From Verrucomicrobiota bacterium (GTDB lineage Bacteria; Verrucomicrobiota; Verrucomicrobiia; Chthoniobacterales; UBA10450), in NCBI GenBank assembly GCA_003218395.1, contig QHNJ01000006.1:1-64000 (forward strand): a stretch of DNA of 64,000 nucleotides. Direction: 5' to 3'. This document shows, in pieces, positions 3,977 through 29,940 of this stretch. Under the pieces are notes generated by a model. It saw only the letters and a program-made list of their open reading frames with translations, searched no databases and was not told the DNA's origin. The first letter of the stretch is position 1; each line of letters starts with the position of its first letter. The translations under genes were made by a program, and so were the position numbers.

Positions 3977-4056
3977 GTTACACGGTTACATTGTTAAAAA
4001 GGCATGAAGGTTCTCTCCCTTTGTAACGTTGTAACGCGTTTAACACTTTAACTTTT
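3977..4056 (+). repeat. 8-bp-phased TTAC/TAAC iteron-like array upstream of secE
   Basis: GTTACACG GTTACATT GTTAAAAA then TTGTAACG TTGTAACG CGTTTAACAC TTTAACTTTT directly before the ATG. Confidence 0.5.
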
Positions 4057-26722: not shown

Positions 26723-27454
26723 ATGGCTGAGACAACAGAATTAGTGCCGGAGCTTCTCGAAGCGGGCGTACATTTTGGGCACCAGACAAAGCGGTGGAAC
26801 CCGAAAATGAAGCCGTTCATTTTCGAGCAGCGCAACCAGATTTATATCATCAATCTTGATGAAACAGTGAAGCAGCTTCAGCGTGCCACGGGGTTTCTTC
26901 AGGAAGTCACCCGCCGCGGAGGCAAGATCTTGTTCGTGGGCTGCAAGAGACAGGCGCAGCAAGCGATAAAGGAAGCGGCGCTCGCTTGCGGCCAATTTTA
27001 CGTCAATCAGAGGTGGCTTGGAGGCACGCTGACTAATCTCTCGACTATTCGCAAGAGCATTGGTCGATTGAAATACATTGAGCAGATCGAGCGATCGCCG
27101 GAATACAAGAAGATGGGCAAACAGGAGTTGGCGGCGCTTAATCGCGAGGCCGCGAAGCTCCGGCGCAATCTCGATGGGATACTCGAGATGTCGCAGTTGC
27201 CCGACGCCTTGGTGGTAATCGACACAACCCGTGAGCAAAACGCGGTGAATGAGGCGCGACGTCTCGGGATTCCAGTCGTCGCCATCGTCGACACGAACGC
27301 CGATCCTGAGCTGATCGACTATCCAATCGCTGGAAACGATGATGCGATTCGCGCTATTCGCGTGATTCTGCAAAAGCTCGTGGACGCCATTGTTTCGGCA
27401 AGCAGCGAAGCTCGGATTCGCGAGCAGGTCGAAATGGCGGGTGTGTCGGCATAA
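26723..27454 (+). CDS. rpsB: ribosomal protein S2
   Basis: LLEAGVHFGHQTKRWNPKMKPFIFEQRNQIYIINLDET. Confidence 0.98.
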   Translation: MAETTELVPELLEAGVHFGHQTKRWNPKMKPFIFEQRNQIYIINLDETVKQLQRATGFLQEVTRRGGKILFVGCKRQAQQAIKEAALACGQFYVNQRWLGGTLTNLSTIRKSIGRLKYIEQIERSPEYKKMGKQELAALNREAAKLRRNLDGILEMSQLPDALVVIDTTREQNAVNEARRLGIPVVAIVDTNADPELIDYPIAGNDDAIRAIRVILQKLVDAIVSASSEARIREQVEMAGVSA

Positions 27455-27463
27455 AAAGGTTGG

Positions 27464-27538
27464 AACGCGAAAATCGTTACATCCTAACGGGGGAACATTT
27501 AACGATTCAACGCTTTAACGCTTCAACTTTTTAACTTT
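27464..27538 (+). repeat. 8-bp-phased TYAAC iteron array upstream of tsf
   Basis: consecutive 8-mers TTAACGAT TCAACGCT TTAACGCT TCAACTTT TTAACTTT at 27499-27538, with further AAC at 27486 and 27494. Confidence 0.7.
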
Positions 27539-27546
27539 CCTTTCCC

Positions 27547-28152
27547 ATGGAAATTGACCCACAACTGGTTAAGCAACTCCGGGAAAAAACCAACGCCGGC
27601 TTTATGGATTGCAAGCGCGCTCTTGCAGAGAGCGGCGGTGAACTGGAAACAGCAGAAGCAATTTTGCGAATGAAAGGCATCGCCATCGCGGGGAAAAAGG
27701 CCTCGCGCCCGGCGAAGGAAGGCATTGTGGCTTCTTATATCCACTTGCAGGGGAAAGTCGGAGTGCTCGTGGAAGTGAACTGTGAGACCGACTTTGTGGC
27801 AAGGAACGAGAATTTTCGCGAGGTCGTAAAGGACATCACGCTGCATATCGCTGCCGCGCATCCGCTTTACGTCAGTCGCGCGGATGTTCCGGGCAATCTC
27901 ATCGAAGCCGAGCGCGAGATCTACAAGGCGCAGCTCAAAGGCAAACCGGAGAACGTGATGAACAAAATTGTCGAAGGAAAACTCGATAAGTTTTTCAGCA
28001 CTGTTTGCCTGCTCGAACAGGCTTTCATTAAGAATCCGGACCAGACGATTGAGGATCTGGTGAAATCGAAGATCGCCGAGCTGGGCGAGAACATCGTTAT
28101 CCGGCGCTTCACTCGCTATCTCGTTGGCGAACCGGTTCCCGCCGAGGCATAG
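27547..28152 (+). CDS. tsf: elongation factor Ts
   Basis: LVKQLREKTNAGFMDCKRALAESGGELETA, NCETDFVARNENF. Confidence 0.98.
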   Translation: MEIDPQLVKQLREKTNAGFMDCKRALAESGGELETAEAILRMKGIAIAGKKASRPAKEGIVASYIHLQGKVGVLVEVNCETDFVARNENFREVVKDITLHIAAAHPLYVSRADVPGNLIEAEREIYKAQLKGKPENVMNKIVEGKLDKFFSTVCLLEQAFIKNPDQTIEDLVKSKIAELGENIVIRRFTRYLVGEPVPAEA

Positions 28153-28163
28153 ACTGTGTGGCG

Positions 28164-28183
28164 GCCCCGAAAGCGCTCGGGGC
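28164..28183. terminator. hairpin after tsf, no clear T tract
   Basis: GCCCCGA aagcgc TCGGGGC. Confidence 0.4.
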
Positions 28184-28197
28184 TAAATTCGAAATCA

Positions 28198-29940
28198 ATG
28201 GGACTGGCCGAGTACAAAGCGAAGCGCGATTTTCGGAAGACGGCCGAACCGAAGGGCGGCAAACCTTTGCCAAAAGCAGTGCGGGGTGCGTCTCGCTTTG
28301 TCATCCAGAAACATGATGCACGCCGTCTGCATTACGATTTCCGGCTACAAATGGAAGGCGTCTTGAAATCCTGGGCCGTTCCGAAAGGGCTTCCCTGGAA
28401 GAAAGGCGAAAAACATCTGGCAGTAGAAGTCGAAGATCATCCGATCGAATACGAAGAATTCGAGGGCGTCATTCCCGAAGGAAACTACGGCGGCGGCACG
28501 GTGATGGTTTGGGACCGCGGCACTTATTATGTTTACGGAGAGCAGCCCACGAAATCGTTTCAGGAAGGCAAATTGCATCTCGTCCTTGGTGGCAAAAAAG
28601 CCAAAGGCGAATGGACACTCGTGCGCATCCGCGGCGCTGACCAGAAGAGTCAGTGGCTAATCTTGAAAACTGGAGCAGACGCCAAACCAATTTCCAAAAA
28701 ACTCGAAGATCAATCGGTCAAGACCGGGCGGACGATGAAACAAATCGCGCAAGATCGCGATGCCGAATGGGAATCCAATCGCGAGGAAAAAGATGCGAGT
28801 GCGACTTCAAAGTTCAAAGCGCGCATCAGAACGGCGAATAAAAAAAAAGAGGCAGGCCGCAATAAACAAACCGATTCCGGGGTAGGGCGCGACCGCCGGG
28901 CGCGCCGAGGAATTATCCCTGAGAACATTCGCGGCGCGCCCGGCGGTCGCGCCCTACCAGATTTGCCCTCTGCCAAAGCCCGCTTCATCGATCCAACGAA
29001 GCCGCGGTTGGTGAAGGACCCGCCCGCCGCGGGAGATTGGATTTACGAACTCAAGTTCGACGGAATCCGGCTGATCGTGGTCAAGACCGACAAGAAAGTT
29101 TCGCTGTTGTCGCGAAATAAGAATGAATTGGCCGGGCGTTTCCCGGAAATTGTCGAGGCGGTAAGGAATTTGCCATCGCGCGAATGCGTGATTGACGGCG
29201 AAGTGGTCGCGCTCGATGACGAAGGCCGCTCATCGTTTCAACTGTTGCAAGCGCGCGAGATGGAAGGACGGAAATTGCCCGTTTATTTCTATGCATTTGA
29301 CCTGCTTCAGCTCGACGGCAAAACCTTGATCGGGCTGTCATTGGAGGCGCGGAAAAATGTTCTCGAAAACCTCTGCGCGGACGCAGGCGATCCAATCCGT
29401 TACTCGGGCGCGATTGGGGAAGAGGCGAAACCATTGCTCAAAGAAGTGAAGCGTCGCGGTCTCGAGGGAATTATTGGCAAACAGCGCAACTCGGTTTACG
29501 AACCGGGGCGTAGAAGCGGCGCATGGATTAAGCTCAAATGCGTAAACGAGCAGGAATTCGTCATTGGTGGATACACGCCGCCCCAGGGATCGCGCAAACA
29601 TTTCGGCGCGATTCTGGTTGGTTATTACAAGAACAAGAAACTGGTTTTCGCCGGCAAAGTCGGCACCGGCTTCACTGCAAAATCGCTTGCAACTTTACAG
29701 AGGAAATTTCAGCAACAAGAAAGGGAGAGTTGTCTGTTTGTCGATCTGCCATCGAAACAAAACGGGCAATGGGTGCAAGCCATCACGCCCTTCATGATGG
29801 GCAAAATGCATTGGGTAAACCCGGTTTTCGTTTGCGAGATTAAGTTCGCCGAGTGGACCCGCGATAATAAATTGCGTGCGCCGGTTTTTGTCGGATTGCG
29901 CGAAGATAAAAAAGCCAGCGAAGTCGTTCGGGAAGTATAA
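28198..29940 (+). CDS. ligD: LigD-like ATP-dependent DNA ligase with N-terminal 3'-phosphoesterase domain
   Basis: FVIQKHDARRLHYDFRLQMEGVLKSWAVPKGLP (PE) and YELKFDGIRLIV (ligase); start within ORF 28156..29940, probable ATG at 28198. Confidence 0.9.
   Translation: MGLAEYKAKRDFRKTAEPKGGKPLPKAVRGASRFVIQKHDARRLHYDFRLQMEGVLKSWAVPKGLPWKKGEKHLAVEVEDHPIEYEEFEGVIPEGNYGGGTVMVWDRGTYYVYGEQPTKSFQEGKLHLVLGGKKAKGEWTLVRIRGADQKSQWLILKTGADAKPISKKLEDQSVKTGRTMKQIAQDRDAEWESNREEKDASATSKFKARIRTANKKKEAGRNKQTDSGVGRDRRARRGIIPENIRGAPGGRALPDLPSAKARFIDPTKPRLVKDPPAAGDWIYELKFDGIRLIVVKTDKKVSLLSRNKNELAGRFPEIVEAVRNLPSRECVIDGEVVALDDEGRSSFQLLQAREMEGRKLPVYFYAFDLLQLDGKTLIGLSLEARKNVLENLCADAGDPIRYSGAIGEEAKPLLKEVKRRGLEGIIGKQRNSVYEPGRRSGAWIKLKCVNEQEFVIGGYTPPQGSRKHFGAILVGYYKNKKLVFAGKVGTGFTAKSLATLQRKFQQQERESCLFVDLPSKQNGQWVQAITPFMMGKMHWVNPVFVCEIKFAEWTRDNKLRAPVFVGLREDKKASEVVREV
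28881..28958. repeat. 26-bp perfect inverted repeat, 26-nt spacer, inside the ligD-like CDS
   Basis: GGTAGGGCGCGACCGCCGGGCGCGCC (28881-28906) and its exact reverse complement at 28933-28958. Confidence 0.97.

Follow-up and report, generated by a model that had tools for sequence, protein, structure and literature searches.

An octamer array upstream of tsf as the probable 3′ arm of a dispersed palindromic repeat in uncultured soil Verrucomicrobia

An octamer array between rpsB and tsf

The stretch of DNA we analyzed (the window) covers 64 kb of a draft genome that totals 2.95 Mb across 335 contigs. On its forward strand, rpsB (uS2; 26723–27454; TIGR01011) lies upstream of tsf (EF-Ts; 27547–28152; TIGR00116). 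Directly 3′ of tsf, positions 28156–29940 encode a LigD-type ATP-dependent DNA ligase with phosphoesterase and ligase domains. The rpsB-tsf spacer contains five perfect forward-strand octamers at 27499–27538 (TTAACGAT TCAACGCT TTAACGCT TCAACTTT TTAACTTT), which follow the degenerate unit TYAACNNT and leave a gap of 8 bp before the tsf ATG at 27547. Further AAC trinucleotides begin at 27486 and 27494, the next being that at 27501 (spacing of 8, then 7 bp). These coordinates agree with a preliminary description of the sequence, which had reported five contiguous octamers and the two upstream AACs just before tsf and had judged their spacing too regular for chance. That judgment is upheld: TYAACNNTTYAAC occurs six times in the window, four of them within the tsf array, against 0.12 expected from dinucleotide shuffles, and a whole-genome search with a three-unit pattern returned 15 matches and none for the reversed control. 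Among the 17 rows that Tandem Repeats Finder reported for the window, the tsf array scores highest (55; periods 8 and 16).

Alignment with the orthologous spacer of a congener (G028) indicates that the array, although correctly described, is one arm of a larger feature. The right arm (27485–27538, forward strand) consists of seven YAAC/GAAC units at 7–8 bp spacing, of which the last five are the perfect octamers, and the element also takes in a worn left arm at 27459–27483 of the same strand (GTTGGAAC-GCGAAAATC-GTTACATC). The initial reading was right about the phasing but incomplete, in that the units are not simple direct iterons. Judged from its sequence, the tsf array makes up the 3′ arm of an inverted element of the form (GTTRMANN)n–short spacer–(NNTKYAAC)n, roughly 60–100 letters long, whose left arm abuts the upstream stop codon. 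A second two-armed element of the same repeat family, better preserved than the tsf copy, occupies the tRNA-Trp/secE spacer (3977–4052, forward strand), with three left and four right motifs and the secE ATG 8 bp downstream.

Arms face inward with fixed polarity

In a 273-kb sample of the source genome, spacings between TKYAAC motifs peak at 8–9 and 16–17 bp, and GTTRMA and TKYAAC motifs within 90 bp of each other form 43 inward-facing pairs versus 10 outward-facing ones. The motif clusters in this sample are visibly inverted arrays, as exemplified by that at 3977–4052. The same polarity extends across the genus: the pattern GTTRMANNGTTRMA-N6..36-TKYAACNNTKYAAC has 344 placements in 34 of 35 congeneric genomes, its reversed-pattern control has none, and the opposite arm order (TKYAAC before GTTRMA) is likewise absent from all 35. 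Because the ability to form a hairpin would by itself permit both orders, the occurrence of only one suggests either common descent or a directional function. The unit motif stays conserved, while the NN letters and the number of units drift. We also considered integron attC sites (RYYYAAC … GTTRRRY) and rejected them; the arm order of the element is the opposite one, and the attC-like order was not found in the 35 congeneric genomes.

Elements occupy gene boundaries and donate stop codons

Of 139 distinct elements, 136 are intergenic and three lie inside predicted open reading frames. Their neighbors are co-directional in 72 cases, divergent in 22 and convergent in 8 (own-genome background: 97, 11 and 15, respectively), and the distance from element to start codon peaks at 11 bp. 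In many cases the upstream gene takes its stop codon from the left arm. Of the 42 stops that lie at distances of +3 bp or less, 40 fall at distances congruent to 3 modulo 8, as the stop is the TRA inside the GTTRAA unit (GT-TRA-A). Since an 8-bp period is not divisible by 3, three GTTRAA units in a row place a stop in every frame. A median of 72% of the co-directional gap is covered by the element, and gaps are not enlarged by it (median 99 bp with an element, 98.5 bp without), which suggests that copies replace or become the spacer rather than merely adding to it. The pattern thus recurs non-randomly at gene boundaries; random placement relative to start codons had been named in the preliminary description as the outcome that would speak against its reading.

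Correctly oriented arms, counted in an unselected survey of stretches of the source genome and of a congener (G014), number 95 in co-directional spacers versus 24 expected, 27 versus 7.2 in divergent spacers and 9 versus 5.2 in convergent spacers; these ratios are approximate, as the G014 contigs were picked partly for carrying elements and genes were called with a simple codon-usage caller. The paucity of elements in convergent spacers, together with the lack of a U-tract and of a terminator-like site at 27454–27546, led us to reject an intrinsic terminator (GC-rich stem plus U-tract). A sigma-70 promoter was rejected as well, with no site at the tsf element, and Rfam covariance models gave no match there at E values up to 1.

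The divergent excess (22 divergent versus 8 convergent, set against a background of 11 versus 15) and the conservation of the motif amid drifting NN letters and unit number would accord with each octamer being the site of a sequence-specific DNA-binding protein, the arrays serving as iterons or operators and the element as the control region of a regulon. However, phasing of 8 bp fails to hold successive sites on one face of the helix, and tsf, secE, obg, glnA and gap have no obvious regulon in common. We consider this explanation improbable.

The strongest rival to the interpretation we develop below is that the right arm is a leader for Shine-Dalgarno (SD)-independent translation, in which unpaired, G-poor YAAC words at a spacing of 7–8 nt before the start codon would bind ribosomal S1 or a different RNA-binding protein. 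It owes this standing to the recurrence of start-proximal YAAC words before tsf and glnA despite differences in the left arm and in the word itself: 12 of 29 tsf orthologs have such words at a spacing of 7–9 ahead of the gene (0.7 expected), and in several sister genera glnA is preceded by words that differ between taxa. Right arms stop about 11 bp short of start codons, the tsf, secE, glnA and gap leaders have no SD sequence, SD 4-mers are not enriched in the source genome, and arms are enriched about 4-fold in spacers that hold a start versus only 1.7-fold in convergent ones. Nonetheless, such words precede only about 4%–6% of genes, and once array loci are removed their excess is gone in the source genome (2 versus 1.1) and small in G014 (6 versus 1.8). 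A YAAC leader grammar general to all genes was accordingly rejected, as only array loci carry such words. Moreover, the inverted left arm would sequester the leader, and convergent and tRNA-flanking copies occur. On balance, we regard a leader of this kind as unlikely.

Predicted folding of the intercistronic spacer

Taken alone, the tsf right arm is unstructured (minimum free energy [MFE] −0.8 kcal/mol), in keeping with the unstructured mRNA leader suggested in the preliminary description; the full rpsB-tsf spacer, by contrast, folds (MFE −19.4 kcal/mol, z −2.17), with 5 of 200 shuffles as good and an antisense z of −0.78. The predicted intercistronic RNA hairpin (27454–27532, forward strand) begins at the final base of the rpsB stop codon and stops 14 nt short of the tsf ATG, and what follows (27533–27546, same strand) is a pyrimidine-rich stretch predicted to be unpaired and lacking an SD sequence. 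The tRNA-Trp/secE element at 3977–4052 folds similarly (MFE −21.9, z −2.77).

Across elements, the mean folding z score is −3.28 versus −1.28 for other spacers, a difference that is partly built in because the set is defined by inverted motifs. Sense folds are only slightly better than antisense folds (−22.2 versus −21.2, p = 0.07). Arms pair modestly better with their own partners than with swapped ones (−17.2 versus −15.5, p = 0.002), an effect that is not significant in the GTTACA subset. In an alignment of obg elements, 3 of 15 pairs have double changes, the covariation term is unfavorable, and there is no net covariation support. Taken together, these comparisons give weak signs of selection on pairing at the RNA level.

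Retention and turnover at orthologous sites

The rpsB-tsf spacer of the nearest relative (G013) is nearly identical to that of the window. G028 has four left-arm units (ATTGAAAA-GTTAAAATC-GTTACATT-GTTACCTC) in place of the window's three worn ones, the G005 element is complete with two arms, and in other congeners the spacer is shorter or different. The absence of periodicity from orthologous tsf leaders, which the preliminary description would have counted against the array, thus applies to many congeners, whereas the nearest ones have it. At obg, an element is present in about ten congeners, with motif and phase kept, letters changed and unit number differing; other species have unrelated repeats instead. 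In one congener (G030; L218, minus strand, ORF start 2001), the Obg GTPase itself contains an in-frame insert that resembles a translated dispersed repeat (..ILSEVEGS..STSLGMT..).

A ymdB-like locus, beside a conserved gene, exists in several states. It is empty in L460, L466, L469 and L470, and some species have a GAATGACGAA..TTCGTCATTC palindrome; in others octamer arrays are nested in that composite, and in further species an octamer element replaces the ancestral leader. Flanks at this locus are partly replaced, and no clean target-site duplication or TA ends could be read there. The palindrome belongs to a separate family (GAATGACGAA...TTCGTCATTC) found in spacers (L449, L456, L459 and L467), where it sometimes encloses an octamer element.

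Comparison of these loci indicates presence/absence turnover, with orthologous sites occupied, empty or differently occupied. Flanking sequence is also shared between unrelated loci: GGCTTCGCC lies within 20 bp of 16 of the 139 elements (0.27 expected), and the members of one subfamily, at unrelated loci, have both the flank GGCTTCGCCAC and a loop in common. Turnover and shared flanks together suggest that the elements behave as dispersed palindromic repeats.

These observations also bear on the suggestion, made in the preliminary description, that the repeat was generated by slippage. Homogeneous multi-unit (CCCTTCAA)n runs in two genomes (G035 and G068) and the varying unit number of obg orthologs are what slippage would produce, and it probably lengthens arrays. 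As a complete account, in which neutral slippage in AT-rich spacers built the array and chance or template switching produced the inverted order, it is very unlikely. It leaves the fixed inverted order unexplained and is largely refuted by it (344 versus 0 for the two possible arm orders), and retention of the obg element in about ten species and flanks common to unrelated loci also count against it; slippage survives as a mechanism of arm lengthening.

Discussion

We favor, with moderate confidence, an explanation in which a family-specific palindromic repeat, dispersed between genes, contributes the tsf array as its 3′ arm and, if co-transcribed, forms an intercistronic hairpin. In our proposal, the palindromic unit would spread by copying and be tolerated at gene ends since any incoming reading frame would terminate within a few units, and its arms would lengthen through slippage in 8-bp steps. 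A co-transcribed copy would fold between rpsB and tsf, with some 14 nt ahead of the tsf start left unpaired. Such a hairpin is the likeliest route of any action the element may have and, as in ERIC and NEMIS, would mainly alter the stability or processing of both cistrons; the element would not be a carrier of an iteron-binding replication or regulon function. The weak signs of RNA-level selection, the unenlarged gaps and the absence of arrays from transposase loci count against this explanation. We see only a slim chance that self-extending octamer arms let one palindrome combine an all-frame translational stop for incoming genes with an SD-free ribosome landing site for outgoing ones, and so mark where two adjacent genes end on both strands.

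Several known repeat systems come close to the octamer element. ERIC/RU, Correia/NEMIS, RUP and CIR are intergenic palindromes of about 100–170 bp, some with stops in all frames, ERIC and NEMIS being co-transcribed and affecting the stability of mRNA (reviewed in PMC2229807). The octamer element is likewise an intergenic palindrome with stops in all frames, but those repeats are fixed-sequence units with defined ends, whereas the octamer arms drift while phase and motif persist. REP sequences of the GTAG/CGTC superfamilies are dispersed, lineage-specific intergenic stem-loops and have been reported in a verrucomicrobium, O. terrae (PMC3733652); the octamer element is also dispersed, intergenic, palindromic and lineage-specific, but its stems are much longer and built of tandem octamers. 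No GTAG/CGTC tag stood out in an unscored inspection of elements. REP mobilized by RAYT was rejected, as arrays occur at none of 30 Y1_Tnp transposase loci, with about three expected from background. Features expected of MITE-like repeats are present, namely inverted arms of fixed polarity, shared flanks at unrelated loci, and both occupied and empty orthologous sites (ymdB-like and obg loci).

TAACTGA heptamers are direct repeats of Beggiatoaceae, Cyanobacteria and Bacteroidetes, some within r-protein operons; their function is unproven, and a role as SD-independent leaders has been proposed (MacGregor 2015, PMC4679880). Both repeats consist of tandem words with a YAAC core and a period not divisible by 3, carry stop codons, lie mostly just upstream of SD-less starts and amount to roughly 100 sets in each genome. 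Theirs, however, are direct heptamers with one inverted case among 170, while the element described here has degenerate octamers in a characteristically inverted arrangement of fixed polarity. The 8-bp TYAACNNT unit does not match the exact TAACTGA heptamer; the position before SD-less starts is shared. In E. coli, uS2 control of rpsB-tsf acts via the rpsB 5′ UTR and not the rpsB-tsf spacer (PMC10931766), which argues that the octamer element is not the counterpart of that control.

The wider resemblance is to the small palindromic repeats of other bacteria, from which arms of tandem 8-letter units set the octamer element apart. Such repeats shape operon expression, normally with stems of fixed sequence; the tandem octamers that make up the stems here retain phase and polarity as their letters drift, and they often give the upstream gene its stop codon. 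The omega leader of tobacco mosaic virus also contains 8-nt direct repeats (ACAAUUAC octamers), which are unstructured and act without an SD sequence. It is viral and has no inverted arm, and we claim no homology. If functional, the octamer elements could add a level of control at gene boundaries across a whole family of largely uncultured soil Verrucomicrobia, with essential genes (tsf, secE, obg and glnA) included. For annotation, they serve as a warning that repeats are often the source of C termini and 5′ leaders in these genomes.

Element loci number roughly 100 per genome. Octamer arrays were found in 11 of the 14 genera sampled in the source family, and 21 genomes that belong to the same order but lie outside that family had none; by these searches, the element is restricted to one family of uncultured soil Verrucomicrobia. 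The nearest named relatives of tsf are from soil metagenome-assembled genomes that bear the labels Verrucomicrobia bacterium AV34, AV21 or Chthoniobacterales bacteria. Literature searches for a description of the element in Udaeobacter or Verrucomicrobia found none, the closest being the TAACTGA heptamers and REP-, ERIC- and Correia-type repeats. In viral contigs, 27 stretches (L421–L447) contain arrays of three TTYAACGN units, among them long homogeneous ones (L424, L446 and L447). Across the family, heptamer (TCAACNN)n arrays (L391–L420) lie at starts, at stops and inside open reading frames, and may represent a sister class of repeat.
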